A stretch of 64,000 bases of DNA, from NCBI GenBank assembly GCA_948567375.1, contig OX419757.1, positions 56,293,665-56,357,664 of the forward strand. Reading direction: 5' to 3'. The notes below the pieces were generated by a model that searched no databases, was not told where the DNA came from, and saw nothing but the letters and a program-made list of their open reading frames with translations. This document shows, in pieces, positions 18,178-55,926 of this stretch. How positions within the stretch are numbered: position 1 is the first letter of the stretch; every line of letters starts with the position of its first letter. The DNA comes from Lunularia cruciata (Eukaryota; Streptophyta; Marchantiopsida; Lunulariales; Lunulariaceae). Made by a program: the position numbers and the translations under genes.

Positions 18178-18193
18178 TAAGGTGGATACAAGC

Positions 18194-18206
18194 AAAAGGT
18201 GGAGTT
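18194..18206 (+). promoter_or_regulatory. Polypurine tract of copia element
   Basis: 'aaaaggtggagtt' lies immediately before the 3' LTR start TGTTATG. This is the usual plus-strand priming position. Confidence 0.8.
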
Positions 18207-19318: not shown

Positions 19319-19768
19319 TGTCATGCTATTTGTAGTGTCACATCTAGATTGCTTAGACACTGGAGTTGCAGTGATAGTAGTTAGAGTTATTTCAGCAATT
19401 TCTCAAAGACTACTTTCCGGTGGTCAGATTTTGTGTTTGGGGTATTGACTTCACGGTGAGGCCCACTGTCACTTTGCACCATTTGCACCGTCGAGTGTGC
19501 CGTCAATGGGAACGTTAGGGTTTCAAACCTAGCTCAAGTCCAAGAATATAATTTTGAAGTGCAACTCGAGAGAGCTCACTTCTTTGATGTTGAGCCTTTG
19601 AGTTCTTGGCTATGAAGGAAAGAGGCATGCGAGCGTCACTTGGATTGAGCTAGCTAGAATGGGTGTGGCTTGATTGTAATCAGTGCCCAATTGTTGGCAA
19701 TTTATAGAGTGACAGATCAAGTATTGATTTGAGTTGAGTATATTTGAGAGTTGTAAACAATTTGATTA
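19319..19768 (+). repeat. Left terminal repeat A1 of element A
   Basis: It matches repeat A1 of element C (38572 down to 38124, read on the minus strand) over its full length, from TGTCATGC to TTTGATTA. It is followed by 'cattagag', a weak match to the tRNA-Met primer site. No second copy of this repeat is present at the right end of element A. Confidence 0.85.
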
Positions 19769-21180
19769 CATTAGAGAAGTGAAATCAAGGAGAAATCAGG
19801 TGCAAGAACTCTGAGTGTTGGTGGTATCTCCAAGCTCGGTGGATTGTTGGTAGCTCAATTGAAGTTTAGTTTTTTCATGGTGTGCAGAAGCTCATTGCTT
19901 GATGCAGATTTGGTAGTATTGCAGATGGTGTGCAAAAGCACTAGCCAATTTTTGAGCAAAGAAGAAGCAATTTTTGAGCAGTGGTTGTGATTTTGAGCTC
20001 AAGAGGTGAAGATATGACCAATTTGTTGTGAGTTGGACTCAAAAAGTAAAATTGAAGGTGTAGTTAGGAAGCTATTCTTGTGAATTTGTGTTTTGGAGAA
20101 ACTCGTGTTTTCAATTTTGCTCGAGTGAAGAGTTAGTGGAGGATTTGGTGGTCATCCAAATTTAGGGTTTATGTCAGATTTTACGTCAAATTTTGGCTAG
20201 AGTTGGAGGAGGTTTGCTAGTTGGCCAGATTTGGAGGAGTTTTGCCAACTTGGAGATGTTTTGCTAGTTTGGAGGAGTTTCACCAGATTTTGGAGGAGGT
20301 TCAAAGTGGCAAGAAGAAAGGCCTCATGTGGCTAAATTTTGGTGTTTAGAGGCATAAGGATATGAGAGGCTATGAAGGCCTAGCAAGCTAGCTAGCATGA
20401 GACTAGCTAGTTTAGAGTAGATCTTGGTCATTGGTTGGAAAAATCTACCCATCTTGCTAGATTTTGTGCAACAAGGTTTGACTCCTAGATCTCTTGTTCC
20501 TAGATTGGTGCACTAGCTAACTAGTCCACCTTCACTTGTTGTCCTAGTGACTATCCTACTATTATCTATACACTTGTAGCTTTGGCTAGGAGAGGCAATT
20601 TGATCCCATTCTTGGTGATCCTGGTAGCTTAGGACTTAGATACAAACTTCTCTTATGTCAAAAGTCAAATGGTGGTAGGGTCAATCTCATGTTGTTGTAT
20701 GAGATGGAGGGTTTTTGTTTAAATTTCTTCTGATTGGATCCCCTCCATTCTTTGCTTTTTGTTTGTCCACCATGTTTGAGTAAGGTGCCCTGACTTTTGA
20801 GTGTTGGTGCTTTGGTGTGCTCTTGGTAGTGAGGCTTGAGTGATAACCAGTCAGACTACCTTTGTTTCTCTTTGGTGAGGCAAGAAGTGATGACCTACAG
20901 ATTGTGAGAGTGTGTATTATGATGGCAAGTTACAGGTTGCTCTTTCCCCTAGTATAGTTATCTTTGTTAGAGTTACATTAGTGGGTGGTGTTCCATGGGT
21001 ACTGGCACTTGGTGGTGCTTAGTTGGTGTTGGCACTTGGTGGGGTACTTGTGGTTGCAATTTGTGATTCCGGTTTGTGGTTGCAATTGTAGTTACTGTGT
21101 CACACTAGAGTTTGTTGGGGATTCTAGAGGAGTTAGCCATGCAGTACGCAATGAGTTTACTCAAAGTGGCACTTGATATC
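19769..21180 (+). other. Leader of element A, non-coding
   Basis: It corresponds to the leader of element C (38123 down to about 37151). Only short open frames are present. It carries the long untranslated-like stretch between the left repeat and gag. Confidence 0.65.
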
Positions 21181-21200
21181 AGCTTGTATCTTAGGTTCCA

Positions 21201-22740
21201 ATGAGAGAGGAGATTGACTCTGATTTGGAGTTTGATACAAGAGTTGATTCAGTTGAGAGTGCACATGGTGTGTCCACACCGTTGTTGTGGGATATGGACA
21301 AGGTTTATGGGGCCTCCAAAGGCCCTAGGCATTACTCTGGTACAATGGGTACCATTGAGTTGGATGACTTCATCCAAGAGTTTGATAGTCAGTATGATCT
21401 ACAACAAATGTGGAACCCAATTTTGTTCACACCCTTCATAGCATGGAAGGGGTTGTTTCAACATTTGGAGTCTTTTTTGCTAATGGATGACTACCATGAG
21501 TTTAGGAGAGCTCACTTGGAGGAGATTGAGTTATGGAGACAGTATTGGTCTCCAAACTATATTTTTATCACAACAAGCTTGGTTGCCAAGAGTAGATCAG
21601 CTGCTGGACCCACAAGTTCTAGCTCAAGTAGTGTTAGTGGAGCTAGTGGAGGTGCACTAGTTGGAGATAGTGCTACTTCGAGTGGATGTACCGCTACAAG
21701 AGGTGGTGTGGGTACAGTGGTTTAACTCCATGGTGGAGTTCTTCTTGTGTTTGAGGCAAAACTACCAAGGAGTGCGGACTGACAAGTTGAGGAGCTTGCA
21801 AGAGTTCCAGCAGAAGGCCAGAGAGAGCCTATGCAAGGCATACACTCACATGAGGCAGCTGATCAGTTTCACTCAGGGAGTTATTGAGGCCCAGGTAGTC
21901 CAGTTTTGGTATGGGATACTGGACAAGGAGTTGTGACGTAGAGTTTGTGATGCTACGTTGTTATAGACTACTTTGCCTACTTTGGTAATGGTCTTTGGTT
22001 TGGTTGAGCGTATTGAGCTCAACATGGTGGAGGAGAGAGTGGTGACATCTAGATTTGGTAGGGAGACCTCATCCATGGCTATGACTTATTCTAGAGTGCA
22101 GCAGAGTGCACCATGCCCAATTGGTTTTTGAGGACAAGATGGACATCCCAGATCCTATGGAGCGAGTGGAAGGTCTAGTGAAGCTAGACCCTTACCTTCA
22201 TTTTTGGGTCAACAATAGCCAATGAGTAGTGGTGTTGCTTGTTGGACTTGTGGTGGACCTCACCATAGGAGAGAGTGTACTCAAGGTAGTGGATCTGATA
22301 CCTTTGGTGCATCACAACCAACATAGAAGCAATGTGAGCATTGCCACAAATTTGGTCAGATTTAGTGACCGATGCTTTGACCTACACCCGGAGTTACGGA
22401 GTGGTAAGGCTACTATGGCAGGTAGTAGAGGAGCTTTGGTTCATGGAGGATGAGGTGGTAGAGGTGGTGGTAAAGGATCTACACCTAGTAGAAGTGCAGT
22501 ACTTGCCCTTACTTCTAATACAACTATGGCTACTTGGATTGAGCAGTTGGAGCAAAGTTTGGCTAGTATGGCCATTGCTCAAAGGAGATCAGATTTGGGT
22601 GCTAAGGCTTCCACCTCATATGCTGGTGATAGAGATGCTTTGGACTTCATGTGCAGAGCAGCTCAGGTGGATGCATCTGCAACAATGCCTAGGAGTGCAG
22701 TACGTGCTCTAGAGCCTAAAGGAGCATTAGTGGAGTTGGA
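21201..22740 (+). mobile_element. Element A gag region
   Basis: Frames at 21201-21725, 21661-21936 and 22526-22747 match the gag of element C, for example 'YSGTMGTIELDDFIQEFDS' and 'VEFFLCLRQNYQGVRTDKLR'. This is the capsid/nucleocapsid precursor region of an old copy with many breaks. Confidence 0.8.
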
Positions 22741-22969
22741 CCTATAGAGAGGAGAGGTTGGAAAACGTCAGACTTCCTTAGTCTTTCATGCTGTCTGAGA
22801 CATTGTAGACAACATCCATGGCTCCTAGACATCCCAGTGCAAGTATCATAGGTGGTGATGGAGTGCATGATTGACTACTTGCTAGTCAGCCACCTGCTAC
22901 TACATAGATTGAGCCTAGCATGATGTTGGGGACGGCTCAACTGATTATGTGGTGCCCTTTGTTTTCAAC

Positions 22970-23600
22970 TAATGACATGCTTACATTGGAAATTGACCCA
23001 GCCCCAGTGTTCCGGTTGGGCTGCCATGCTTTATGAGAGTAGGGATGATGCGGTTCCTACTACTAGAGCAGAGGTGGTTGGTAGTGGAGCTAACTTGGTT
23101 GAGGAGCATGGGATCCGTTTAGCGACTAGTGGTTTATGGCAAGCAGCAACAGCTAGATTGGAGGAGTTGCTAGCTAGACCGGCCTTTGAGAGAGCACGGT
23201 TCACACCTGGTGTTGTCTTATTGGATAACCAAAGGGGGATTTTCTACTTGGTGAGACCTTCAGGGAAGGTCTATACACCATAGACAGTCTTGTTAGACTC
23301 CGGTGCACAACCCCTTATATTGGGGAATGCTACAGTATCCGGTTTGGAGTTACAGAAGACCAATATGGAGAGGTGTCCATTTTAGATCCAAACATCTCTA
23401 GGTGGTGGTTTGACATAGTACATCACACGTGAGAGCTCAAACTATTGCAACAATAGTTGAGTCATATGATGTGCTAGTTGGGGAAGTAGTGTTATACCCC
23501 AAGGGTCTCAGCAATTGACTATTAGGAGGAGACACCCTCCTATAGACCAGGTTGGAAGTGTGGTGAGGGACGGGTATGTCACCTACCAATATGCTTTAGT
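22970..23600 (+). mobile_element. Element A protease region
   Basis: It contains 'ARFTPGVVLLDNQRGIFYLV' and the equivalent of the LLDSGAQ aspartic-protease motif of element C. It is fossil and decayed. Confidence 0.7.
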
Positions 23601-23743
23601 AGTGGCAGTCTTGGCTCACTACAGTCCAAGACCATGGCAACATCAGTTTTAGCTTTCAGTGGTGTAGTTACATAGCCTGGTGACTTGTTGGTGGGGAACG
23701 CCCATGTAGAGGATACTCCAATACTAGAGGAGATCACTCAGAT

Positions 23744-24545
23744 TTGGAGTACAAGTGGGATTGTTCTATCCACCTTGGATGTTCTATTGTGGAGTTCACA
23801 AGAGGCATTGCAATAGCATGCAAATCAGTTGGTGCAACAGGCATGGAGTGGAGCCTTTGTACCATCATGGATGAGTGTGAGGATGAGCCTCCAAAGTCAA
23901 TTACTTTGACACCTCTAGATACCACACTCATTGCTTGGCAGTATCCAATAGAGGGGATATGTCTATTGGAGTTGTTCGGTGGGATTAGCACCGGACTAGT
24001 ATGGGTATTACAGGTGGGTATACAAGAACATAGGTACTTGTATGTAGAGAGAGATGAGACTACTAGGCAAGTCTCTCTACATCATGTGGCCCACTTGGCC
24101 TATTGGTATCTGGAGTTATTACTGATGTCAACAATCAGAGGTTACCAAAAGGTCCTACCTGTAGACATTTTCTTATTAGGGGCGCATGATTTGGAGAGAC
24201 ATGGGCCTATTCACTTGGTGATTTCTGGATGGCCATGTTAGGGACATACACGTGATGGATGAGGTTTGGGTCTTCAGGATCCTTGTTCCGGTGTGTTTTG
24301 GGAGATGTTACGGATACCATGACATCTCTAGGTTCATCAGTCCATTTCTCCAGCTGACCTTTTGGAGAACGTTCCTTTGATGGGTGATTCTCGCACTAGA
24401 GTGGTGGCAAGTACACATCAGGTCCATTCTTGGATGGGACCTGCTGTATTGTTGGATGCAACCAAAGTGGGATCACAAGCTCATTGTCTTTGTCTTTGGT
24501 GGACAAATCTCTTACCCAGAGAGGTTTTACAACTCAGACATTTGT
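23744..24545 (+). mobile_element. Element A DNA cytosine-5 methyltransferase region
   Basis: The frame at 23744-24241 includes motif I ('LLELFGGISTGL', near 23970) and reaches motif IV ('VISGWPC', near 24225). The motif VI segment 'LLENVPLMGDSRTR' and the motif VIII-like W-W-T-N-L-L segment appear further on (about 24360-24520). The domain lies in the same place as in element C, between protease and reverse transcriptase, so the methyltransferase predates the split of the two copies and is not a quirk of C. It is fossil, decayed and incomplete. Confidence 0.82.
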
Positions 24546-24933
24546 GAGCCATGTGCTTATCAAGATGATTCAGGCACATGTTGGGTGCAATGGACTGAGT
24601 GGACATGGTATTCTTGGAACGCAACCAGTAGCTACTAGGGAGAGTGGTCTACTTGGAGTCCATCCAAGTGATCATGGGCTACTTGGATTACACCCTTGGT
24701 CCACTTGGGATGCAGCTAGAAGACATATGGAGCTTGCAGCCAAAGTGGAGGGAGTTTTTCACATAGAGGTTGGGACCTCTAGTGGTCTAGGGCATGACAC
24801 TATTGCTCCCAAGGGCCAAGTGTAGCAGCAAGTCAATACATCTTCCACTCCTACAATAGTTACAGAGGATACTTGGGAGCCAGATCTTGGATCCAAGGTT
24901 ATTAGAGAGGAAAGACGGAGGGTTTGGAGGTTC

Positions 24934-25467
24934 TTGAGGAGCCACACAAGTTGTTTTGCCTTTAGTATGAAGGATTTGGGTGCTCTAAAGGGACCTAGTA
25001 TACGGATTGAGCTGACTAGTGATACACCAATTTTCCAACGTCCTTATCAATATAGTGATATGGAGAGGACATTGATTCAAAGCCGAAGTAGTGACCTTTT
25101 TGAGGCTGGTTTGGTGGAGATCTCACATGGAGAGTATGCATAGTGACAATGATGCCAACCAAGAAGGATATGCATGGCAACTACACACATAGATGGATGT
25201 GTGGAGATAACCGTCCTATCAACCAACAGACCAAGGCTGATCGGTATGCCATGCCTACATTTGAGGAGATTTTTGATGCAATTGGGCATACAAAGGTCTT
25301 CAATACTTTGGATCTTTGAGCGGGATATCATCAATTGCTGATCAGGGAGGAGGATAAGTCCAAGACAACATTTTGGGCTATTGATCCTCACGGTAAGGAT
25401 GTGTTATATCAGTGGAGGTTCTTACTGTTTGGGGTTAAAGAACGCTCTTGTTGAGTTCCAGAGGGTC
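24934..25467 (+). mobile_element. Element A reverse transcriptase, first part
   Basis: It starts 'MRSHTSCFAFSMKDLGALKG' as in element C and runs to the point where element B is inserted, inside the equivalent of 'EFQRV|MDRI'. The rest of the domain continues at 44889. Confidence 0.82.
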
Positions 25468-28886: not shown

Positions 28887-28992
28887 TGTCGTGCGTATAT
28901 ACATCGCTACACAACATACATCGCTGTCAACATCATACACTATAAAAGCACAACTCACACATAAGTCATACATAGACTCTAAAGTGCCACAA
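28887..28992 (-). repeat. Terminal repeat B2 of element C (3' end)
   Basis: 106 bp, identical to B1 (29444-29549). In element orientation it ends CGCACGACA directly at the GCAA duplication. A TATAAAAG motif on the plus strand (28941-28948) points antisense to the element. Confidence 0.9.
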
Positions 28993-29441
28993 TAATCAGA
29001 TTGCTTAACATTCTCAACTCAACTCAACTCAGATCAGTACTTGATCTGTCACTCTATAAACTGCCAACAACTGGGCACTGATTACAGTCAAGCCACACCC
29101 ACTCAAGCATAGAGAATCCAGGTGACGCTCGCCGGCCTCTGTCCACCATAGCCAGGAACTCGAAGGCTCAACATCAGAGAAGTGAGCTCTCTGGAGCTCA
29201 CTTCGAAACTATACCCCCTGGACTCGAGCTAGCCCTGAAACCCTAACGGTCCCGCTGACGGCACACTCGACGGTGCAAACGGTGCAAAGTGACGGTGGGC
29301 CCCACCGTGAAGTCAGTACCCCGAACACGAAATCTAACCGTCGGAAAGTAGTCCCTGAGAAACAGCTAGAATAACTCTAACTACCATCACTTGAACTCTA
29401 GTGTCCGAGCATCTAGATGCGGAACTACAAATGGCGTGACA
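28993..29441 (-). repeat. Repeat A2 of element C
   Basis: 449 bp, same length as A1 (38124-38572) and differing from it at 3 positions by hand count. In element orientation it runs from TGTCACGCC to CTGATTA and is followed directly by B2. Confidence 0.92.
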
Positions 29442-29447
29442 GCTGTC
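29438..29447. promoter_or_regulatory. Palindrome GACAGCTGTC at the B1-A2 junction
   Basis: A perfect 10-bp palindrome formed where B1 (ending GACA), the dinucleotide GC and A2 (starting TGTC) meet. The two outer ends of element C are the two halves of this palindrome. This is the pattern expected if the integrating ends are made by opening such a site. Confidence 0.75.
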
Positions 29448-29549
29448 GTGCGTATATACATCGCTACACAACATACATCGCTGTCAACATCATACACTAT
29501 AAAAGCACAACTCACACATAAGTCATACATAGACTCTAAAGTGCCACAA
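29444..29549 (-). repeat. Repeat B1 of element C
   Basis: 106 bp, identical to B2. In element orientation it follows a G-rich polypurine stretch ('agggggggcga', 29550-29560) and precedes GC and A2. TATAAAAG lies on the plus strand at 29498-29505. Confidence 0.92.
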
Positions 29550-29560
29550 TCGCCCCCCCT
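29550..29560 (-). promoter_or_regulatory. Candidate polypurine tract of element C
   Basis: Read on the minus strand, 'agggggggcga' abuts B1. Element A has the equivalent 'agggaggcaa' just before its B repeat (55811-55820). If it primes plus-strand synthesis, the LTR would begin with B1. Confidence 0.55.
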
Positions 29561-29718
29561 AGCTGGCGGTTAGGTCCCTCTAACTCCAGATAGCCATCTA
29601 CTCTAAGTATATGGTATACCCTCTAATGGGCAAAGATCAGGAGGCCGGGTGCTATGGAGCCCCATCGTTAGTCGCCTGTCTGCAATCTATACCATATAAA
29701 GAATGAACTAGCTATAGA

Positions 29719-30972
29719 TCAAGTACATCTAGGACATAACCACTGTCCCTGAGGAACCACCGTGAGGGGAGGAGTCATACATGCCATATGCCATCCTCTC
29801 GAACAGCTATCACACACTAACATAGTAGCAGCTCCACCAGAAGAGCCACATAACATACACCTCAAGCCTGCACGTACAAGTGCCAAGCTTGGGTCCATAG
29901 TACCATCAATGTTTGGAAGGTGGCATGGCGCACAATTGCGCACATGATCCTTCCAAACAACACCATCACGTCCTTCTAACACAAGGACTCCAGATGGCAA
30001 AACCTCGTGCACTCTCAAGATAGTGCGGCCTGTAGAAACATCAAGTGTCGTCGGTGCTGTCTGCTGTAGATATACATAGTCGCCTGGATGAAATCGACGG
30101 ATCGAGGGTCTATAACCTCCTCCTTGAATGGTAGCATAGCGTAAAGTATCTCTATGCTGAGCAATCGCCAAGTTCTCGAAGGCCATCGGCATCACTCTCT
30201 GAAAGATCTCTGCCCGCTGAGAACATGCGCTCATCCATACATCAGGGTCATCCAAGTCCAAAATTACAGTAGCATCTCGACGAATGGCTGCAGGTAAATC
30301 TGGATCTCGTCCATAGAGTAGAAAGTATGGAGAGAAGGATGCTAAGGAGGCTTGCCGGCTGAACCGATAGCCCATGGCCAACCAAGGTAACTGGAGATCC
30401 CAATCTCCCAAGTGGCCTCTCTGCAAACCATACTTTCGCAATCCTCTCTTCGTCGTCTGAACCACTCTCTCTGCTAAGCCATCTGCCTCAGGGTGATCTC
30501 GGGATGTAGTACGATGATCAATCAAAGCCTTGTCACACAAGACCTGAAATTCTCCCAAGAACTCTGTACCCTGATCAGTCAAAACCTTAGCTGGTGCACC
30601 AAAATGACTAAGAACTCGATCCAGGAACGAGTAAGCTGTCCCTTCACTAGACTTGTCAGGAAGTGCCACCAACTCAATCCACTTGGAGAAGTGCTCCACC
30701 ATCACCAAAACATACCGATGATGTCTCACAGTCAGCGGTAAAGGTCCGGCGAAGTCCAAACTCCAACGGTAACCCAATCCCATGATAGGTAATGGGTGTA
30801 ACTGTGGCGTAGGAGCATTGAATGATGCTCTAACTCGGTCACAAACCACACATATGGCAACAAACTGCTGTACCTCGGTCTGCATACCGTGCCACCAATA
30901 ATGACTCTGGAGTAAGCTATATGTACGCTTTACTCCAAAATGTCCTAGCTCCTCATGAGCATGACGGACCAA
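29719..30972 (-). CDS. Element C integrase with C-terminal PHD finger
   Basis: 417 codons. It starts with the HHCC zinc-binding domain ('HEELGHFGVKRTYSLLQSHY' then 'CVVC', residues about 4-48). The DDE core follows: 'SLDFAG' near residue 70, 'LTDQGTEF' near 134 and 'HPEADGLAER' near 160-170. A C-terminal barrel-like segment ('FHPGDYVYL') comes next. The last 45 residues (about 372-416) form a Cys4-His-Cys3 PHD finger: CxxC, CDSC, WHMAC and a final WLCPRC. Family knowledge: the core inserts retroelement cDNA, and PHD fingers commonly bind the histone H3 tail. The PHD sits where chromoviruses have a chromodomain, so a role in choosing chromatin targets is inferred. The same arrangement is seen in element A (54419 to about 55645). 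Confidence 0.9.
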   Translation of the reverse strand: MVRHAHEELGHFGVKRTYSLLQSHYWWHGMQTEVQQFVAICVVCDRVRASFNAPTPQLHPLPIMGLGYRWSLDFAGPLPLTVRHHRYVLVMVEHFSKWIELVALPDKSSEGTAYSFLDRVLSHFGAPAKVLTDQGTEFLGEFQVLCDKALIDHRTTSRDHPEADGLAERVVQTTKRGLRKYGLQRGHLGDWDLQLPWLAMGYRFSRQASLASFSPYFLLYGRDPDLPAAIRRDATVILDLDDPDVWMSACSQRAEIFQRVMPMAFENLAIAQHRDTLRYATIQGGGYRPSIRRFHPGDYVYLQQTAPTTLDVSTGRTILRVHEVLPSGVLVLEGRDGVVWKDHVRNCAPCHLPNIDGTMDPSLALVRAGLRCMLCGSSGGAATMLVCDSCSRGWHMACMTPPLTVVPQGQWLCPRCT

Positions 30973-30981
30973 CTGTGGTCT

Positions 30982-31296
30982 CTATGATGGAAGTGGTACT
31001 ACTCGCACTCTACCATCCTCACATACACGCAAAAGGTGTCTACCCTCCAATCTGAACCGTCTGGCCCGCTGAAGAACACGGTCTCTCTCCTTGGCCCCAA
31101 CTGTGCCACCCACAACACCAGTGCGAAGATAGTCCATCACTAAGACATCATCATGAATGTCTCGCTGAACTGTACCAATATCTTCACTCTCTGGATCTGT
31201 CACCTCAATAACTCCTCCTGTATGCGCTGAGAGAGATACCACCAAAGTCTCTATAAATATACACAGAAAGGCCGATGCATGCCAACCTGGCACCAT
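30982..31296 (-). CDS. Element C linker between RNase H and integrase
   Basis: About 100 codons covering the N-terminal extension of integrase ('DVLVMDYLRTGVVGG', 'RARRFRLEGRHLLRV') that precedes the HHCC domain in gypsy elements. It is equivalent to 54100-54410 in element A. It has no known activity of its own. Confidence 0.65.
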   Translation of the reverse strand: MVPGWHASAFLCIFIETLVVSLSAHTGGVIEVTDPESEDIGTVQRDIHDDVLVMDYLRTGVVGGTVGAKERDRVLQRARRFRLEGRHLLRVCEDGRVRVVPLPS

Positions 31297-31309
31297 CTCC
31301 TCATCTGTC

Positions 31310-32737
31310 TCACCATGCCATCTGTCTCACCATGTCTCCTCCGGTCTGATCCTGCTGGCTGGGACATGGGTTTCTACTCAACCCATATGCATCACGGTTC
31401 ACCACTCCAGGTCTGTGAACAACCGTGAAATCATATTCCTGTAAAATCAGAGCCCATCGTGCAAGCTTCCCTGAAAGCTTGTCGGACTCCATCAACCACT
31501 TCAGCGGCTGATGATCAGTGATGAGAGTGAAGGGGTTACCAAATAGGTAACATCGGAAATGTGCTACTGCCCAAACTGCTGCCAAGCACTCTCCCTCATA
31601 TGAACTATACTTCGCCTCCGCTGAATTGTTGGAGCGACTAGCATAGGCCACCACAAACTCCTTCTCCTCATCATCATGCTGGGTGAGCACCGCTCCAAGC
31701 CCCAACATACTCCAATCAGTGTGAACCTGAAATGGTCGTCCCCTGATCGGTCTCCTCAAAATAGGAGCAGATGTCAACCTCTCCTTGAGCTCTACAAAAG
31801 CTCTCTCCTGCTCATCTCCCCAACACCACTCCTGTGTAAGCTTGGTCAGCTTCGTCAAGGCCTTGGCAATGGCACTAAATCCTCTAACATAGCGGCGATA
31901 GAAGTTTGCCAACCCAAGGAATGCTCGCACTCTGCTCACATCCGTAGGCCGAGGAATACGTGCAATAGCCTCCACCTTGGTCTGCTGAACACCAAGTCCT
32001 CCGGGGTAGATAGTGTGACCCAAATACTCAACCTGCTCATGGAAGAACCTACACTTCCCAGGATGTAATTTGAGTCCATGAGATCTCAACCTCTCAAACA
32101 CCTCCAACAACTGTCTCTCATGCTCCTCCACAGTAGTGCTATACACCAAAATGTCATCAATATAGCACCGAGCAAAATCCAGTCCAGCTAGGATCCTATC
32201 CATGACCCTCTGGAACTCAGCAGGAGCATTCTTCAACCCAAATGGTAAGAATCTCCACTGATATAACACATCCTTGCCGTGAGGATCAATAGCCCAAAAT
32301 GTTGTCTTGGACTTATCTTCCTCCCTGATCGGCAACTGATGATATCCCGCTCGAAGATCCAAAGTACTGAAGACCTTTGCATGCCCGATCGCATCAAAAA
32401 TCTCCTCCGGTGTAGGCATGGCATACCGATCAGCCCTGGTCTGTCGGTTGATAGGACGGTAATCTCCACACATCCGCCTATCTGTATAGTTGCCATGCAT
32501 ATCCTTCTTGGCTGGCATCACTGTCGCTGATGCATACTCTCCATGTGAAATCTCCACCAAACCAGCCTCAAAAAGGTCACTACTCCGGCTCTGAATCAAT
32601 GTCCTCTCCATCTCACTATATCGATAAGGACGTCGGAAAACAGGTGTGTCGCTAGTCAGCTCAATCCGTATACCAAGTCCCTTCAGAGCACCCAAATCCT
32701 TCATACTGAAGGCAAAACAACTCGTGTGACTCCTCAA
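31310..32737 (-). CDS. Element C reverse transcriptase and RNase H
   Basis: 475 codons. Reverse transcriptase landmarks are 'DYRPINRQTRADRYAMP', 'TLDLRAGYHQLPIRE', 'FGLKNAPAEFQRVMD' and the catalytic 'YIDDILVYS' near residue 192. RNase H follows from about residue 310, with 'VHTDWSMLGLGAVLTQ', 'AYASRSNNSAEAKYSSYEGE' and 'DHQPLKWLM' near 409. It copies the element RNA into cDNA and removes the template. The order RT, RNase H, integrase is that of Ty3/gypsy. 'TDWS' stands where many gypsy RNases H have 'TDAS'. The branch within Ty3/gypsy is not clear to me; it lacks the FIDDF core of Athila/Tat and has no chromodomain. Confidence 0.92.
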   Translation of the reverse strand: MRSHTSCFAFSMKDLGALKGLGIRIELTSDTPVFRRPYRYSEMERTLIQSRSSDLFEAGLVEISHGEYASATVMPAKKDMHGNYTDRRMCGDYRPINRQTRADRYAMPTPEEIFDAIGHAKVFSTLDLRAGYHQLPIREEDKSKTTFWAIDPHGKDVLYQWRFLPFGLKNAPAEFQRVMDRILAGLDFARCYIDDILVYSTTVEEHERQLLEVFERLRSHGLKLHPGKCRFFHEQVEYLGHTIYPGGLGVQQTKVEAIARIPRPTDVSRVRAFLGLANFYRRYVRGFSAIAKALTKLTKLTQEWCWGDEQERAFVELKERLTSAPILRRPIRGRPFQVHTDWSMLGLGAVLTQHDDEEKEFVVAYASRSNNSAEAKYSSYEGECLAAVWAVAHFRCYLFGNPFTLITDHQPLKWLMESDKLSGKLARWALILQEYDFTVVHRPGVVNRDAYGLSRNPCPSQQDQTGGDMVRQMAW

Positions 32738-32845
32738 GAACCTCCAAACCCTCCGTCTTTCCTCTCCAGTAAGCTTGGGTCCAAGATCTGGCTCCCAAGT
32801 ATCCTCTGTAACTGTAGTAGGAGTGGAAGACGTACTGACTGGCTG

Positions 32846-35800
32846 CTATACTGGGCCCTTGGGAGCAATGGTGTCATGCTCCCGACCACTAGAGGTCCCA
32901 ACCTCTGTGTGAAAAACTCCCTCCACTCTGGCTGCAAGCTCCATACGTCCTCTGGCTGCATCCCATGTGGACCAAGGGTGTAATCCAAGTAGCCCACGCT
33001 CACCTGGATGGACTCCAAGTAGACCACTCTCCCTAATAGCTACTGGATGTGTCCCAAGAATACCATGTCCACTCGGTCCATCGCCCCCAGCATGTGCCTG
33101 AATCGTCTCGATAGGCACAGGGCTCACAAGTGTCCGAGTGGTGATGCCTATCAAGCGCATCCTACACTGCTCTGCCAAACCAAGGCTCACAATCCAGGTC
33201 AAACAGTTCAGGTCCATAGCCTGACCTAACACCTGACGCCTGGATGCCTCTGACACTGCTGGAACAGCGGTAATACCGGTGCGAAAACCCATCGCCCGCT
33301 CTCTCTCATCAGCATTGGGCTCCACCAACTGCTGTAACTGTGAGTCCCAAACAAGTCCAGGTCCTCCCTCTCGAAAAGCATGAGAGCCTGGGAAACTCAT
33401 GAGTGTGGGAAATGCAGCTCTAGGCTGTCCAACTAGGTTCACCACTGCCATGGGTGACCTATCAGCCACTACCACTGTCTGAGACTGACGCCCAACATCC
33501 AAGATATCATCAACAAGAATGTGGTCCAGTCGCTGAATCCCATCATAAGCACGCTGTAGAACCTCTCTGGGTAAGAGGTTTGTCCACCAAAGACGAAGAC
33601 GATGAGCCCGTGATCCCACTCTGGCTGCATCTAACAATACAGCAGGTCCCATCCATGAATGGACCTGATGTGTACTCTCCACCACTCTAGTGCGAGAATC
33701 ACCCATCAATGGAACGTTCTCCAAAAGGTAAGCTGGAGAAACAGACTGATGAACCTGGAGATGTCGTAGTATCCGTAACATCTCCCAAAACACACCAGAA
33801 CGAGGATCCTGAAGACCCAAACCGCGGCCCGCACATGTATGTCCCTGACATGGCCATCCAGAAATCACCAAGTGAACATGCCCATGTCTCTCTAGGTCAT
33901 GCGCCCCCAGTAAGGAAATGTCTCCTGGTAAGGCCTTCTGGTAACCTCTGACTGCTGACATCGGTAATAACTCCGGATACCGATAGGCCAAGTGTGCCAC
34001 ATGATGTAGAGAGACTCGCCTAGCAGTCTCATCTCTCTCTACATACAAGTACCTCTGTACTCGGATACCCGCCTGTAATACCGCAGCTAGTCCGGTGCTG
34101 ATCCCACCAAACAACTCCAATAGGCATATCCCCTCTATTGGATACTGCCAAGCAATGAGTGTGGTATCCAGAGGTGTCAAAGCAATCGCCTCTGGAGGCT
34201 CATCCTCACACTCATCCCCTGATGGTACGAAGGCTCCACTCCAAGCCTGCTGCACCAACTGATCTGCATGCTGCTGCAATGCCTCCTCTAAACTCCACAA
34301 TGGAACATCCAAGGTGGATGGAACAATCCCACTCGTACTCCATAGCCGAGTGATCTCCTCTGGTATTGGAGTATCCTCTGCATGGGCGTTCCCCTCCAAC
34401 AAGTCACCAGGCCAAGTAACTGCACCGCTGAAAGCCAAAACTGATGCTGCCATGGTCCCGGACTGTAGTGAGCCAAGATTGCCACTACTGAAGCGTACTG
34501 GTAGGCGACATACCCGTCCCTCACCAGACTGCCAACCAGGTCTATAAGAGGCTGTCTCCTCCCAATAGTCAATACTGAAACCCATAGGGTATAACACTGC
34601 TCCCCCAACTAGCACATCATATGACTCAGCTATCGTCGCAATAGCCTGAGCTCTCACCACCGAGCTATCAGTCGGATGACCAGGCTGAACCTGGACAACA
34701 AGCTCTCCACGTGTGATGTACTGTGTCGAACCACCACCAAGAGATGTCTGGATCTGAAATGGACACCTCTCCACATCGGTCTTCCGTAACTCCAGACCAA
34801 CAACTGCAGCCTTCCCCAACATAAGGGGCTGCGCACCAGAGTCTAACAAGACTCTCTGTGGTGTATAGACCTTCCCTGAAGGTCCTACCAAACAAAAGAT
34901 CCCCCTCTGGTTATCCAATAGGACAACACCAGGTGTAAACCGCGCTCTCTCAAAGGCCGGTCTAGCTGGCAACTCCTCCAATCTAGCCGCTGCTGCCTGC
35001 CATAAACCACTGGTCGCTGAACGGATCCCATGCTCCTCAACCAAGTCAGCTCCACTACCAACCACCTCTGCTCTAGTAGTAGGAACTGCACCATCCCTAC
35101 TCTCACACAACGTGGCAGCCAACCGGAACACTGGGGCTGGGTCCACTCCCAATGTAAACATGTCACTGGCTGAAAATAAAGGATGCCGCATAATCAGCTG
35201 AGCCGCCCCCAACATCATGCTAAACTCAGTCTGTGTAGTAGCAAGTGGCTGACTAGCAGGTACTCCATCAAGTACTCCATCACCACCTACCACACCTGCA
35301 CTGGGACGTCTAGGAACCATGGATGTCGTCTGCAATGCCTCAGATAGCGTGAAAGATTGGGGAAGTCTGACCTGTCTCCCAACCTCTCCTCTCTGTGGGT
35401 CCAACTCCACTGATGCTCCTCTAGGCTCTGGAGCACGTACTGCACTCCTAGTCACTGCTGCAGATGCATCCACCTGTGCTGCTCCGCACATGAAGTCCAA
35501 AGCATCTCTATCACCAGCATATGAGGTGGAAGCCTCAGCACCCGAATCTGATCTCCTATGAGCAATAGCCATACTAGCCAATCTCTGCTCCAACTGCTCA
35601 ATCCGAGTAGCCATAGCTGTGTCAGAAGTAAGGGCAGGTACTGCACCCCTACTAGGTGTAGATCCTCTACCACCACCTCTACCACCTCGTCCTCCATGAA
35701 CTGGAGCTCCTCTACTACCTGCCATAGCAGCCCTACCACTCCGTAACTCCGGGTGTAGGTCAAAACACCGGTCACTAGTATGACCAAATCTATGGCAGTG

Positions 35801-37150
35801 CTCACACTGCCTCTGTGCTGGCTGTGATGCACCAGAGGTATCAGGTCCGCTGCCCTGAGTACACTCTCTCCTATGGTGAGGTCCACCACAAGTCCAACAA
35901 GCAACACCACCACTCACTGGCTGCTGCTGACCCGAAAATGAGGGTAAGGGTCTAACTCCACTAGGCCCTCCACTCGCTCCATAGGATCTGGGCTGTCCAC
36001 CCTGTCCTCGAAACCCAACTGGGCATGGTGCACTCTGCTGCACTCTAGAAGAAGTCACAACCATGGATGAGGTCTCTCTACCAAATCCAGATGTCACCAC
36101 TCTCTCCTCCACCATGTTGAGCTCAATACGCTCAGCCAAACCAAAGACTACTGCCAAAGTGGGCGAAGTAGCCTGCAACAACGTAGCATCACGAACTCTA
36201 CGTCGCAACTCCCTGTCCAGTATCCCATACCAAAACTGGACTGCCTGGGCCTCAGTAACTCCCTGAGTGAAACTGATCAGCCGCCTCATGCAAGTGTATG
36301 CCTCGCGTAGGCTCTCTCTAGCCTTCCGCTGGAACTCCTGCAAGCTCCTCAGCTTGTCAGTCCGCACTCCCTGGTAGTTCTGCCTCAAACATAGGAAGAA
36401 CTCAACCATGGGGTTAAACCCCGATACCACACCACCTCCTGCAGCGGTACCTCCACTCGTAGTAGCACTATCTCCAGCTAGTGCACCTCCACTAGCTCCA
36501 CCAACACTACTCGAGCTAGAACTCGTAGGTACAGCCGACCTACTCCTGGCCACCGAACCTGAAGTGATGGAGACATAGTGTGGAGACCAATACTGTCTCC
36601 ATAACTCAATCTCCTCCAAATGAGCTCTCCTGAACTCATGGTAGTCGTCCATCGGTGGACCCTCCAAGTGCTGAAACAACCCCTTCCATGCCATGAAGGG
36701 TGTGAACAAAGTCGGGTTCCGCATCTGCTGCAGATCACACCAACCATCGAACTCCTGGATGAAGTCATCCAACTCAATGGTACCCACTGTACCAGAGTAA
36801 CGCCTAGGGCCTTTGGAGGCCCCATAAATCTCGTCCATGTCCCACAACAACGGTGCGGACACACCAAGTGCACTCTCAACTGAATCAGCTCCTGTGTCGA
36901 ACTCCAACTCAGAGTCAATCTCCTCCCTCACTGGGACCTGAGATACAGGTTGATACCGAGCACCACTCCGAGTAAACCCACTGCGTACTGCAGGGCTAAC
37001 TCCTCTGGAATCTCCAAAGAACTCCGTCGTGACAAAGTAACCACACCAACAAACCCGAACCACCAACTGCAACAGCAAGTCGCAACCGCAAGTGCCCCAC
37101 CAAGTGCCAACACCAACTAAAACACCACCCACTAATGTAACTCTAACCAA
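32846..37150 (-). CDS. Element C Gag-protease-DNA cytosine-5 methyltransferase polyprotein
   Basis: 1434 codons in one open frame. The true start may be downstream, because the first 70 residues read like translated leader. The gag core includes 'VEFFLCLRQNYQGVRTDKLR' (about residues 250-350). Two zinc knuckles follow: 'CWTCGGPHHRREC' (about 417-430, C-x2-C-x3-H-x4-C) and 'CEHCHRFGHTSDRC' (about 448-461). The protease carries 'VLLDSGAQ' near 768. A cytosine-5 methyltransferase occupies about 1000-1330: motif I 'LLELFGGISTGL' (about 1015), motif IV 'ISGWPCQG' with the catalytic Cys (about 1098), motif VI 'LLENVPLM' (about 1145), motif VIII 'AHRLRLWWTNLL' (about 1181), motif IX-like 'ERERAMGFRTG' (about 1280) and motif X-like 'LGQAMDLNCLTW' (about 1307). 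The motif order is canonical, and motifs I, VIII and X most recall the DNMT3/DRM group. All key motifs look intact. Predicted activity: C5 methylation of DNA. Confidence 0.92.
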   Translation of the reverse strand: MVRVTLVGGVLVGVGTWWGTCGCDLLLQLVVRVCWCGYFVTTEFFGDSRGVSPAVRSGFTRSGARYQPVSQVPVREEIDSELEFDTGADSVESALGVSAPLLWDMDEIYGASKGPRRYSGTVGTIELDDFIQEFDGWCDLQQMRNPTLFTPFMAWKGLFQHLEGPPMDDYHEFRRAHLEEIELWRQYWSPHYVSITSGSVARSRSAVPTSSSSSSVGGASGGALAGDSATTSGGTAAGGGVVSGFNPMVEFFLCLRQNYQGVRTDKLRSLQEFQRKARESLREAYTCMRRLISFTQGVTEAQAVQFWYGILDRELRRRVRDATLLQATSPTLAVVFGLAERIELNMVEERVVTSGFGRETSSMVVTSSRVQQSAPCPVGFRGQGGQPRSYGASGGPSGVRPLPSFSGQQQPVSGGVACWTCGGPHHRRECTQGSGPDTSGASQPAQRQCEHCHRFGHTSDRCFDLHPELRSGRAAMAGSRGAPVHGGRGGRGGGRGSTPSRGAVPALTSDTAMATRIEQLEQRLASMAIAHRRSDSGAEASTSYAGDRDALDFMCGAAQVDASAAVTRSAVRAPEPRGASVELDPQRGEVGRQVRLPQSFTLSEALQTTSMVPRRPSAGVVGGDGVLDGVPASQPLATTQTEFSMMLGAAQLIMRHPLFSASDMFTLGVDPAPVFRLAATLCESRDGAVPTTRAEVVGSGADLVEEHGIRSATSGLWQAAAARLEELPARPAFERARFTPGVVLLDNQRGIFCLVGPSGKVYTPQRVLLDSGAQPLMLGKAAVVGLELRKTDVERCPFQIQTSLGGGSTQYITRGELVVQVQPGHPTDSSVVRAQAIATIAESYDVLVGGAVLYPMGFSIDYWEETASYRPGWQSGEGRVCRLPVRFSSGNLGSLQSGTMAASVLAFSGAVTWPGDLLEGNAHAEDTPIPEEITRLWSTSGIVPSTLDVPLWSLEEALQQHADQLVQQAWSGAFVPSGDECEDEPPEAIALTPLDTTLIAWQYPIEGICLLELFGGISTGLAAVLQAGIRVQRYLYVERDETARRVSLHHVAHLAYRYPELLPMSAVRGYQKALPGDISLLGAHDLERHGHVHLVISGWPCQGHTCAGRGLGLQDPRSGVFWEMLRILRHLQVHQSVSPAYLLENVPLMGDSRTRVVESTHQVHSWMGPAVLLDAARVGSRAHRLRLWWTNLLPREVLQRAYDGIQRLDHILVDDILDVGRQSQTVVVADRSPMAVVNLVGQPRAAFPTLMSFPGSHAFREGGPGLVWDSQLQQLVEPNADERERAMGFRTGITAVPAVSEASRRQVLGQAMDLNCLTWIVSLGLAEQCRMRLIGITTRTLVSPVPIETIQAHAGGDGPSGHGILGTHPVAIRESGLLGVHPGERGLLGLHPWSTWDAARGRMELAARVEGVFHTEVGTSSGREHDTIAPKGPV

Positions 37151-38123
37151 GATAACTACACTAGGGGAAGGGCAACCTGTAACCTGCCATCATAACACGC
37201 ACTCTCACGGTCTACAGGTCATCACTTCTTGCCTCACCGGAGAGAAACAAAGGTAGTCTGACTGGTCATCACTCCAGCCTCACCACCGAGAGCACACCAG
37301 AGCACCAACGCTCAAAAGTCAAGGCACCTCACACAAACGTGGTGCACAAACAGGAAGCAAAGAATGGAGGGGATCCAATCACAGGAAATCTAAACAAAAA
37401 CCCTCCATCTCATAACACAACACGGGACTGACTCTGCCACCATTTGGCATTTGACATAAGAGTAGTTCGTATCTAAGTCCTAAGCTACCAGGATCACCAA
37501 GAATGGGATCAAACTGCCTCTCCTAGCCAAAGCTACATGTGTATAAATAACAGTGGCACAGTCACTATGACAACAAGTGAGGGTGGACCAGTTGGCTAGG
37601 GCACCAGTCTAGGAACAAGAGATCTAGGGGTCAAACCCTGTTGCGCACAATCTAGCAAGAAAGGCAGATTTTGCCAACCAATGACCAAGATCTACACTAA
37701 ACTAGCTAGCCTCACGCCAGCAAGCTGGCTTGCTGGCCCTTCTGGCCCTTCTAGGCCTTTGTAGCCTCTCATAGCCCACAGCCCTATGCCTCGAAGCCTC
37801 CAACTCTAGCCTCCAACTGGAGCTTTCCAACTCCACCTTCAATTTCACTTTCTGAGCCCAACTCGCAGCAAATTCGTCCTGCCTTCACCTCTTGAGCTCA
37901 AAATCACAACACTGCTCGAAAATTGCTCCTTCTTTGCTCGAAATTTGGCCAGCGCTTCCGCACACCGTCCGCCTAACTGCCAAATTTGCATCAACTACAC
38001 GAGTTCTACACTCTAGGGAAACACAGAACCTGAATCGAGCTACCACGATCCACCGAGCTTGGAGATACCACCAACACTCAACGTTCCTGCACCCGATTTC
38101 CCCCTGACTTCACTTCTCTGATG
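37151..38123 (-). other. Leader of element C, non-coding
   Basis: About 1 kb between A1 and gag, matching 19769-21180 of element A. Immediately after A1 the minus strand reads 'catcagagaag', a weak match to the ATCAGAG core of the tRNA-Met primer site. No convincing open frame is present. Confidence 0.6.
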
Positions 38124-38572
38124 TAATCAGATTGCTTAACATTCTCAACTCAACTCAACTCAGATCAGTACTTGATCTGTCACTCTATAAACTGCCAACA
38201 ACTGGGCACTGATTACAGTCAAGCCACACCCACTCAAGCATAGAGAATCCAGGTGACGCTCGCCGGCCTCTGTCCACCATAGCCAGGAACTCGAAGGCTC
38301 AACATCAGAGAAGTGAGCTCTCTGGAGCTCACTTCGAAACTATACCCCCTGGACTCGAGCTAGCCCTGAAACCCTAACGGTCCCACTGACGGCACACTCG
38401 ACGGTGCAAACGGTGCAAAGTGACGGTGGGCCCCACCGTGAAGTCAGTACCCCGAACACGAAATCTAACCGTCGGAAAGTAGTCCCTGAGAAACAGCTAG
38501 AATAACTCTAACTACCATCACTTGAACTCCAGTGTCTGAGCATCTAGATGCGGAACTACAAATGGCGTGACA
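38124..38572 (-). repeat. Terminal repeat A1 of element C (5' end)
   Basis: In element orientation it runs from TGTCACGCCATTTG to CTGATTA and is followed by the leader, not by B. It is paired with A2 at 28993-29441. Confidence 0.92.
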
Positions 38573-38576
38573 GCAA

Positions 38577-44888: not shown

Positions 44889-45085
44889 AGTCATGGATAT
44901 GATCCTAGCTGGATTGGATTTTGCTTGGTGCTATATTGATGACATTTTGGTCTATAGCACTACTATGGAGGAGCATGAGAGATAGTTGTTGGAGGTGTTT
45001 GAGAGGTTGAGATCTCATGGACTCAAATTACATCCTGGGAAGTGTAGGTTCTTCCATGAGCAGGTTGAGTATTTGGGTCACACTA
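44889..45085 (+). mobile_element. Element A reverse transcriptase, second part
   Basis: It continues from 25467 across element B with the equivalents of 'LDFARCYIDDILVYSTT' and 'LHPGKCRFFHEQVEYLGHT'. The join of 25467 to 44889 matches the uninterrupted sequence of element C. The segment ends where chromovirus E begins. Confidence 0.85.
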
Positions 45086-45489
45086 TGTATAACAATATGG
45101 AGTTTAGCAACATAGTTAGTAAGGCTAATGAAGTAGAGAATAAGCCAAATTAGCCTAGAATATTCCAAAAGCATCAAGGAAGCTTCTTGACTAGTTAACT
45201 TGCACTCCAAGCAGGTAACTTCTAGAAGGAAGCTTATAGAAGCTTCTAACTATCTTAGCTTGCACGCCAAGTAGGCAAACTTCTAGAAGGAAGCTTCTTG
45301 AGAAGCTTGCTAGTTAACTTAGCTTGCACTCTAAGAAAGTAGCTCAAGGAAGCTTCTCAAGGGCCTTGTATGCTACCTATAAATACCAAATCCAAAGCTC
45401 ATGCTAGGCATTTGGAGTTTTCCCTTATTCAAGTGTCCCAATGTGAGTTTCCATTCTCCTATTTCTCTCCTCGGATTTGGTCTTTTACA
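45086..45489 (+). repeat. 5' LTR of chromovirus E
   Basis: It starts TGTATAACAATATGG and ends TTTTACA, directly before 'ttgctattagagtagga', a decayed tRNA-iMet primer site. Inside are about three imperfect repeats of an 'agcttgcac..caag' unit with AAGCTTCT palindromes (about 45190-45345). Confidence 0.7.
45377..45385 (+). promoter_or_regulatory. TATA box in chromovirus E LTR
   Basis: 'ctataaata' lies about 105 bp before the LTR end, a normal place for an LTR promoter. Confidence 0.6.
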
Positions 45490-50990: not shown

Positions 50991-51059
50991 TTTGTATTTG
51001 TGGTGTGGATCAAGCCGATTGCACAAGAACAATCTACATAGGGCCGAGAGCCTCCTCAA

Positions 51060-53640: not shown

Positions 53641-54050
53641 TGAGTCCAACTTCCTCATCCCCTATCCCTATCAATGATCATGAGGAGTATGAAGTTGATC
53701 GTATCCTTGCACGTTGCCACATCCAACGAGGACGCCGCCACCATACAAAGTACAAGGTCCTTTGGAAAGAGTACCCCCTTAGAGCAGAGGCAAAGTATAG
53801 TTCATATGAGGGAGAGTGCTTGGCAGCCATTTGGGCAGTAGCACATTTCCAATGTTACCTATTTGGTAACCCCTTCACTCTCATCATTGATCATCAGCCA
53901 ATGAAGTGGTTGATGGAGTCCAACAAGCTTTCAGGGAAGCTTGCACGACGGGCTCTGATTTTACATGAGTATGATTTCACGGTTTTTCATAGACCTAGAG
54001 TGGTGAACCATGATGCAGATGGATTGAGTAGAAACCCATGTCCCAGCTAG
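53640..54050 (+). other. Chimeric open frame: chromodomain of E followed by RNase H of A
   Basis: One 136-codon frame starts with the chromodomain of element E ('EYEVDRILARCHIQ', residues about 17-45) and continues with element A RNase H ('AEAKYSSYEGECLAAIWAVA' and 'DHQPMKWLMESNKL') from about residue 48. The junction near 53778 marks where the two elements were recombined; neither the 3' end of E nor the skipped part of A is present. This is an accidental fusion between fossils, with no implied function. Confidence 0.75.
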
Positions 54051-54059
54051 CAGGATCAG

Positions 54060-55645
54060 ACTGGAGCACGTTGGCATGGTGAAATAGATGAGGAGATGGT
54101 GCTAGGTTGGCATGCATTGGCCTTTTGTGTATATTTTTTGAGGCTTTGGTGGTACCTCTCTCAGCGCATACAAGAGGAGGTATTGAGGTCACAGATCTAA
54201 AGAGTAAAGATATTGGTATAGTTCAATGAGACATTCATGATGATGTCTTAGTGATGGACTATCTTTGCATTGGTGTTGTGGGTGGCACAGTTGGGGCCAA
54301 GGAGAGAGACCGTGTTCTTCAGCAAGCCAGATGGTTTAGATTGGAGAGCAGACACCTTTTGTGTGTATGGGAGCATGGTAGAGTGCAAGTAGTACCACTT
54401 CCATCTCAAAAACCATAGTTGGTCCATCATGCTCATGAGGAGCTAAGACATTTTGGAGTTAAGCAAACATATAGCTTACTTCAGAGTCATTATTGGTGGT
54501 GCGGTATGCAGACCAAGGTACAACATTTTGTTGCCAAATGTGTGGTTTGTAACCAAGTTAGAGCATCATTCAATGCTCCTACACTACAATTACACCCATT
54601 ACCTATCATGGGATTGGGTTACCATTGGAGTTTGGACTTTGTTGGACCTTTATTGTTGATTGTGAGACATCATTGGTAAGTTTTGGTGATGGTGGAGCAC
54701 TTCTCCAAGTAGATTGAGTTGGTGGCACTTCTTGACAAGTCTAGTGAAGGGACAACTTACTTGTTCCTGGATCAAGTTCTTAGTCATTTTGGTGCACTAG
54801 CTAAGGTTTTGACTAATCAAGGTATAGAGTTCTTGGGGGAGTTTCAGGTCTTGTGTGACAAGGCTTTGATTGATCATCATACTACCTCCCAAGATCACCT
54901 TGAGGTAGATAGCTTAGTAGAGAGAGTGGTTCAGACAGTGAAGAGAGGATTTTGAAAGTATGGTTTGCAAAGAGGCCATTTGGGAGATTGGGATCTCCAA
55001 TTACCTTGGTTATTGGTTATTGGTTCAGCCGGCAAGCCTCCTTAGCATCCTTCTCTCTATGGACAAGATCCAGATTTACCTGCAGCCATTCATCAAGATG
55101 CCACTTTAGTGTTGGACTTGGATGATCAAGATGTATGGGTGAGCGCATGTTCTCAATGGGTAGAGATCTTTTGGAGAGTGATGCCAATGGTCTTTGACAA
55201 CTTGGCGATTGCTCAACATAGAGATACTTTACACTATGCTACCATTTGAGGAGGAGGTTATAGACCCTTGATTTGTCAATTTCATCCATGTGACTATGTA
55301 TATCTATAGTAGACAGCACCAATGACACTTGATGTTTTGACAGGCTGCATATCTTAAGAGTGTGTGAGGTTTTGCCATTTGGAGTCCTTGTGTTGGAAGG
55401 ACATGATGGTGTTGTTTGGAAGGATCATGGGTGCAATTGTGGCCATGCCACCTCCCAAAAATTGATGGTACTATAGACCCAAGCTTGGCACTTGTACGTG
55501 CAGGCTTGAGGTGTATGTTATGTGGCTCTTCTAGTGGAGCTGCTACTATGTAGGTATGTGATAGTTGTTCAAGAGGATGGCATATGGCATGTATGACTCT
55601 TCCTCTCACGGTGGTTCCTCAAGGACAGTAGTTATGTCTTAGATG
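54060..55645 (+). mobile_element. Element A integrase and PHD finger region
   Basis: It matches the element C integrase: the zinc-binding segment at 54419-54560 ('HEELRHFGVKQTYSLLQSHY'), the core at 54600-54955 ('WSLDFVGPL', 'LTNQGIEFLGEFQVLCDKAL') and a PHD-equivalent segment at about 55500-55645. The PHD arrangement was therefore already present in the older copy. It is fossil, with many breaks. Confidence 0.82.
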
Positions 55646-55820
55646 TACTTGATCTATAGCTAGTTCATTATTTATATGGTATAGATTGCAAACATGCGAC
55701 TAATAATAGGGCTACATAGCACCCAACCTTCTGATCTTTGCCCATCATAGGGTATACCATATACTTAGAATAGATGGCTATCTGGAGTTAAAGGGACCTC
55801 CACGCCAGCTAGGGAGGCAA

Positions 55821-55926
55821 TTATGGCACTTTGGAGTCTATGTTTGACTTATATGTGAGTTGTGCTTCTATGGTGTATGATGTTGATAGCTATGTATGTT
55901 GGGTAGCGATGCATATACACATGACA
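55821..55926 (+). repeat. Right terminal repeat B of element A
   Basis: 106 bp, the same length as B1 and B2 of element C, ending CATGACA directly at the CCAA duplication. A G-rich purine stretch ('agggaggcaa') lies just before it. No A2 or second B follows; the next sequence is element G leader. Confidence 0.85.

Follow-up and report, generated by a model that had tools for sequence, protein, structure and literature searches.

A DNMT3-type cytosine methyltransferase domain in a gypsy-type retrotransposon of the liverwort Lunularia cruciata

Why should a transposon carry the very type of enzyme that hosts turn against transposons? The puzzle is raised by a stretch of 64,000 nucleotides of the Lunularia cruciata contig OX419757.1 (hereafter the window), in which a gypsy-type element, named element C, encodes a cytosine-5 methyltransferase (DNMT) domain. 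A sequence-only reading of the window had placed such a domain inside the element, and the profile, motif and fold evidence presented below agrees with it. The features of element C, and those of an older and broken relative named copy A, are collected in Table 1.

Table 1. Features of element C and copy A in the 64-kb window
Feature	Position	Strand	Remarks
Element C, integrated unit	28887..38572	-	Ends TGTC...GACA; repeat walk, blastn, flank comparison
GCAA on either flank of element C	28883-28886 and 38573-38576		Flank comparison
Terminal repeat A, 5' copy	38124..38572	-	
Repeat A, second copy	28993..29441	-	Between the two B repeats
Repeat B, inner copy	29444..29550	-	107 nt; equal to outer B
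Repeat B, outer copy	28887..28993	-	3' end of integrated element C
Palindrome GACAGCTGTC	29438..29447	-	Inner B/GC/A junction; holds both the TGTC and GACA terminal sequences
Candidate polypurine tract, sense GCTAGGGGGGGCG	29551..29563	-	G-rich; directly 5' of inner B; putative function
Candidate primer-binding site, sense ACATCAGAGAAGTGA	38110..38124	-	Directly 3' of A; putative function
Self-complementary partner inside A, sense TCACTTCTCTGATGT	38302..38316	-	Candidate RNA 5' end as own primer
ORF1: Gag, aspartic protease (LLDSGAQP), DNMT	32846..37150	-	First in-frame ATG 36838
DNMT3-type cytosine-5 methyltransferase domain	33161..34138	-	ORF1 residues about 1005-1330
In-frame TAG CAG CCA	32840..32848	-	ORF1/ORF2 boundary
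ORF2: reverse transcriptase and RNase H	31310..32845	-	Shortened in copy C
Integrase (H2C2, rve core)	29719..30981	-	With C-terminal PHD finger
PHD finger at integrase end	29725-29859	-	E 7e-11
Copy A, 5' part	19319..25467	+	Repeat A, Gag, protease, broken DNMT, RT start
Copy A, middle piece	44890..45089	+	RT
Copy A, 3' part	53783..55926	+	RNase H, integrase, repeat B

Layout of element C and of copy A

The repeats of element C follow the order A-coding-B-A-B. The two A copies are identical at 448 of 451 bases, with the 2-base GC spacer counted, and the two B copies at 107 of 107; because the repeats differ so little (3/451 and 0/107), the family of element C is, judged from these repeats, one of recently active Ty3/gypsy-type retrotransposons. 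The element starts where A starts and finishes where B finishes, instead of being bounded by two identical LTRs. The polypurine tract-like and primer-binding site-like sequences would delimit a conventional repeat B-GC-A, and the integrated ends fall inside this unit. They lie at the palindrome GACAGCTGTC, a sequence found a single time in the 64-kb window. Based on one complete and one shortened copy, this arrangement suggests a circular form opened at the GACAGCTGTC junction, which would explain the A-coding-B-A-B repeats. A tandem array or a solo-LTR remnant was considered for the B-A-B part and rejected: in a tandem, A should be followed by the 5' inner sequence and not by B, and the A-coding-B-A-B unit is enclosed as a whole by the GCAA repeat, although this flank repeat consists of only 4 bases and is weak evidence taken alone. 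A near-mode comparison of positions 28900-29600 with a plasmid collection gave no match.

The site that directly follows repeat A is a perfect 15-nt complement of a segment lying within A itself, which suggests self-priming. Seven of its bases resemble an initiator-tRNA primer site.

The DNMT domain is the last part of a Gag-protease-DNMT frame and lies between the protease and the reverse transcriptase (RT). It is the sole domain matched by Pfam on ORF1 at E values up to 10. Two zinc-knuckle-like motifs of Gag were identified by eye, and the protease motif LLDSGAQP by eye and by alignment to the relative P0036, which has a zf-CCHC and, at the corresponding position, a gag-asp_proteas domain. 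The pol domains of element C (RVT_1, RT_RNaseH, H2C2, and rve) are those of a gypsy RT-RNase H and a DDE integrase. ORF1 continues into the RT in the same frame with a single TAG between them, which rules out a frameshift between ORF1 and ORF2. The boundary reads exactly TAG CAG CCA in five of the six copies compared (C, L005, L006, L007, and L008) and TAG CAG CAA in copy A. UAG CAR YYA is the readthrough context of tobamoviruses, and the conserved TAG CAG CCA ahead of the RT of element C is presumably a context of the readthrough type. Copy C is not autonomous, because its pol frame is broken: ORF2 is cut off early beside a tandem duplication of 17 nt (31302-31334), and another stop precedes the integrase.

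The relatives of the domain were gathered in a set of 65 proteins, made up of the window's own frame, 61 matches at E <= 1e-3 from a protein search with the domain, among which that frame was absent, and three new proteins from a second search. The protease and the DNMT occur without an RT in the same protein in 28 of these 65, the window's own frame included, as expected from a stop after the DNMT; some of the 28 are partial gene models or are cut by contig ends. An epigenetic reader, the PHD finger of the integrase, stands beside a writer, the DNMT, in one element, and a PHD-like pattern is present in 15 of the 65 proteins, a set to which the integrase frame of element C does not belong.

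Copy A carries the same domain in the same place, after the protease and before the RT, as the sequence-only reading had stated, but in a broken form. It is flanked by CCAA on either side, with one extra T, and a second A-B after its B repeat was not found, the layout being A-coding-B only. The region 19319-55926 is nested: the old copy A is interrupted by an element whose repeats lie at 25468-26148 and 44198-44879 (96%), within which the young copy C sits, and a second insert is located in copy A at about 45090-53782. Elsewhere in the window, a Copia-type element (13951-18607) has 189-nt repeats 96% alike, with integrase and RVT_2 frames at 15590-17616.

Class, constraint and descent of the methyltransferase

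Motifs I, IV, VI, VIII, and IX/X are all present in the canonical order that had been read from the letters, together with the catalytic Cys and the motif VI Glu. The fold is that of a DNMT3 catalytic domain, with structural alignments to DNMT3A and DNMT3B at about 19-25% identity. The search against the C5-methyltransferase family that had been proposed gave a match both in Pfam and in the PDB. When the family profile was compared with the PDB (figures from the best 60 of 67 matches), DNMT3A (1.9e-25) came ahead of every other class: the chain 4onj, named 'DNA methyltransferase', scored 7.2e-14, DRM2 3.2e-10, HaeIII 3.1e-10, HhaI 1.8e-8, the DNMT2 or tRNA-C38 enzymes 3.5e-7 to 2.2e-5, and DNMT1 0.29. 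The host DRM matches 4onj at 3.1e-101. In the PHROGs collection the matches were limited to families of phage DNA methyltransferases and a single family of unknown function. The domain family conserves the Cys, the ENV and the SAM-site motif. The catalytic Cys is found in 60 of the 65 aligned domains (four gaps and one Tyr) and the motif VI Glu in all 65; in 20 of the 65 (for example P0036, P0039, P0042, and P0046) a Glu takes the place of the motif IV Pro, changing PCQ to ECQ.

Selection on the domain was examined in six copies, namely C and A from the window, copy A by its aligned part only, and L005-L008 from elsewhere in the genome, which are four of the eight top loci by Pfam score, the other four being host genes. 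Pooled over the 15 pairs, which are not independent of one another, dN/dS is 0.38 in the DNMT and 0.41 in the RT part, against 0.94 in the adjoining near-neutral spacer of 104 residues that follows the DNMT. The disjoint pairs C-A, L005-L006, and L007-L008, with counts summed by hand, give about 0.38 for the DNMT and 0.97 for the spacer. Simulated neutral evolution under the observed mutation bias yields 0.89 in the DNMT, 0.76 in the RT, and 1.11 in the spacer, so that the low value in the DNMT is not produced by the C>T bias. The comparison across copies called for by the sequence-only reading indicates that selection maintains the domain, and we hold it to be very likely that the element-borne DNMT3 is under selection. 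In the 566-Mb assembly (74 contigs), the best 123 of 2161 candidate matches were scored; the matched stretch is free of stops in 110 of them, and seven lie in open frames of at least 1000 codons, six of these being stop-free in the match. These figures lean toward good copies: at least four of the 123 (L001-L004) are host genes, and the copy in the window is not represented among them.

Among the relatives with a species or genus name, proteins of Marchantia polymorpha (Mp_8g17980, Mp_4g09160, and others) are 60-73% identical in the DNMT domain and proteins of Closterium 38-44%. The protein P0038 of Sphagnum fallax, a gene model without motif IV, is 50% identical in the search table and 75% identical over 230 aligned columns, and it groups with Marchantia (98/82). 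It is closer than vertical descent of mosses and liverworts would lead one to expect, which suggests horizontal transfer or assembly contamination. The earlier view that such a domain is no standard part of land-plant elements needs revising, as proteins of Marchantia and Sphagnum carry it. A relative was also found at 46 loci of viral contigs, where partial stretches of the domain are matched at 25-45% identity. P0064, used as a query for more distant relatives, returned four rows, itself included. No protein of Klebsormidium nitens is named among the relatives from the domain search, in the P0064 search, or among the best 120 of the 784 matches of the host locus L001.

The RT and the DNMT occur together in 36 of the 65 proteins, the DNMT coming first in 17. 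The order protease-DNMT-RT is found in the Marchantia proteins P0008, P0009, P0012, P0014, and P0017; a second architecture, with the RT before the DNMT, is seen among the relatives P0039-P0067 (19/36). For 32 proteins, the tree of the RT and that of the DNMT have 17 of 29 splits in common (shuffled mean 0.18, maximum 3), including the one that parts 13 DNMT-first rows from 19 RT-first rows (100/100 and 100/99). This congruence argues that the element inherited the enzyme from far back and that the two have long travelled together, and the two orders indicate that it has either moved once within the element or been taken up twice.

Could the element instead have captured its enzyme recently from a DNMT3 or DRM gene of its host? 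The host offers both, an unrearranged DNMT3 gene at L001 (G000 C7) and a rearranged DRM gene at L002 (C1), as well as a second DNMT3-like locus and a CMT-like exon (CMT by eye) at L003 (C8) and L004 (C1). The exons of L001 are 60-61% identical to Marchantia proteins of the DNMT3b type, 42-58% to Riccia, 55% to Calypogeia, and 52% to MpDNMT3a (best 120 of 784 matches). For DRM, the sequence-only reading had already judged a simple capture unlikely, and this stands: the order VI-X then I-IV, the hallmark of plant DRM, is present in L002 and absent from the element domain, and in the PDB comparison the DNMT3 chains outscore those of DRM. DRM is, however, not the sole plant candidate, since an unrearranged DNMT3 has been retained in liverworts. 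A 39-row tree has a single branch (100/100) with 20 element enzymes on one side and the remaining 19 rows on the other; these 19 consist of 12 plant DNMT3, human DNMT3A, and six further proteins, one of which, from Closterium, falls inside the plant DNMT3 clade (98/99). The phylogeny suggested in the earlier reading thus sets the element rows apart from plant DNMT3, in a tree whose root is not fixed, which lacks DNMT1 and DNMT2 rows and in which long branches are flagged; in an earlier tree, which included a permuted DRM row, long-branch joins were flagged. With the plant DNMT3 of the host on the other side of the 100/100 branch, and the same enzyme, congruent with the RT, present in far relatives, a recent capture of either host gene is extremely improbable.

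A possible role for the enzyme

Changes of C>T or G>A make up 161 of the 233 changes private to one of the six copies, with rates of 0.139 in CG (46/331), 0.085 in CHG (64/752), and 0.015 in CHH (50/3395), one change being unclassed. On the evidence of this footprint, the resident copies are or were methylated. The strong deamination in CG and CHG indicates that the family does not escape methylation in the host. As the copies decay by C>T and G>A, methylation gives them no protection, and all of it may be the work of the host. Since host enzymes alone can explain the footprint, it neither shows nor excludes self-methylation.

The explanation that we favor, with slightly better than even confidence in the whole of it, is that of a recently active gypsy-type family which makes a DNMT3 in Gag-like amounts and methylates its own cDNA or insertion. 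Ribosomes would mostly stop at the TAG, leaving the enzyme in Gag-like amounts; the protease would free it, and it would be packaged with the RNA. The RT-RNase H-integrase-PHD part would be made by readthrough, in smaller amounts, and for reverse transcription the RNA would serve as its own primer, its 5' end folding onto the site that follows repeat A. Newly made cDNA, or else the newly inserted copy, would receive de novo methylation from the enzyme, with CG as the probable target by analogy with the SymbioDIRS enzymes. The methylated DNA would be in a host-like or quiet state, with less damage to the host and less detection as foreign DNA, and the PHD finger of the integrase would read histone tails at the target. 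Production at the Gag level is somewhat likelier than not, because the DNMT sits in the Gag frame; for the enzyme acting on its own cDNA or insertion, we see the arguments as evenly balanced. Points that count against the favored explanation are the broken pol frame of copy C, the decay of the resident copies, the motif IV exchange in 20 of the 65 relatives, the failure of the K. nitens gypsy enzyme to methylate in yeast, and the existence of elements lacking a DNMT in the genomes concerned (both PMC5890265). We infer from the sequence that the element may write its own methylation. A fuller version is doubtful: a particle-packed DNMT3 writer would mark the cDNA before integration, the PHD-bearing integrase would pick the chromatin, the DDE integrase would insert the circle opened at GACAGCTGTC, and the lineage would be streptophyte-old or spread horizontally between bryophytes.

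Several other readings of the enzyme were weighed against this explanation. Its place in one frame with Gag would also suit a task other than DNA methylation, such as the methylation of the element's RNA or of a tRNA, or a nucleic-acid binding role in the particle; the Glu for Pro exchange in motif IV of 20 of the 65 relatives may point the same way, and in PMC5890265 RNA methylation is brought up for the LINE elements described there. We consider such a task improbable, given that the best profile and fold matches are DNMT3A and DNMT3B, that the DNMT2 chains lie far behind among the best 60 of 67 profile matches, and that the Cys, ENV, and SAM-site motifs are conserved. The enzyme might alternatively serve as a counter-defence, acting on the host by spreading methylation or by competing with host enzymes and so disturbing the silencing of the family. 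The PHD reader and the Gag-like level that would follow from the Gag-frame place fit this proposal, which the heavy CG and CHG deamination of the copies nevertheless makes unlikely, as the family looks methylated, not freed. Finally, copies A, L005, L007, and L008 have stops within the domain, as have 13 of the 123 scored genome matches (the best 123 of 2161 candidates), which could be taken as the mark of an old capture now functionless and drifting; the dN/dS of 0.38 against 0.94 in the adjoining spacer and the conservation of the domain across liverwort, moss, alga, and metagenome relatives make this passenger status very unlikely.

The favored explanation, a writer acting on the element's own DNA, has a consequence that follows from the Gag-frame place: the enzyme is predicted to be packaged and the cDNA to be methylated before integration. 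Marchantia is transformable and has published methylomes, and the presence of relatives there makes the question directly testable.

Comparison with known systems

The element enzyme shares its catalytic fold and motif order with DNMT3A and DNMT3B and differs from them in having no attached ADD or PWWP domain, a PHD finger being carried by the integrase instead. The priming arrangement recalls the self-priming gypsy elements of the Tf1/sushi type from fungi and animals, in which the primer site after the 5' repeat is complementary to the possible RNA 5' end; in element C the complement is 15 nt long and lies in a candidate RNA 5' end. Tf1 has ordinary LTRs and a chromodomain. The Marchantia relatives bear the NCBI name 'hypothetical protein' in the rows listed, and their UniRef names mention CCHC, DNA (cytosine-5, and reverse transcriptase; no description of an element was found for these proteins in the searches made. 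No account of DNMT-bearing elements in bryophytes was found in the open-licence PubMed Central literature, and an earlier mention in a liverwort is possible. The genome of Lunularia cruciata is more than twice that of Marchantia polymorpha, an increase mostly ascribed to Ty3/Gypsy bursts (PMC9985172), and the element family may bear on this genome size.

DNMT3 enzymes have been described in a Klebsormidium gypsy element with DIRS-like repeats and in Symbiodinium DIRS elements (PMC5890265); PMC12344493, citing that work, treats such elements as known in streptophytes and dinoflagellates and calls its LTR family Copia. SymbioDIRS-Dnmt3 of Symbiodinium has split direct repeats, as element C does, and DNMT3 in one ORF with the RT; it has a tyrosine recombinase, in contrast to the DDE integrase of element C, and belongs to a separate lineage according to PMC5890265. 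The SymbioDIRS DNMT3s give de novo CG methylation in yeast, and none was obtained there with the gypsy enzyme of K. nitens, a result that the authors call inconclusive; they also argue that elements without DNMT live in the same genomes (PMC5890265).

KnitGypsy-Dnmt3 of Klebsormidium nitens is, as described in PMC5890265, similar to element C in its gypsy domain set, in its unrearranged DNMT3 within the coding region and in its DIRS-like A-coding-B-A-B repeats (A-coding-B in copy A). Purifying selection acts on its DNMT, with a Ka/Ks below 0.2 against 0.38 for the element C family. The main text of that paper has no occurrence of PHD, Gag, readthrough, or frameshift, and a single one of 'primer', for PCR. 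Element C differs by its land-plant host and by a DNMT that closes the Gag-protease frame before an in-frame TAG, whereas KnitGypsy-Dnmt3 is described as a Pol polyprotein ORF. The kind of element is known from Klebsormidium and Symbiodinium (PMC5890265), and what appears to be new here is a DNMT3-bearing gypsy element in a liverwort.
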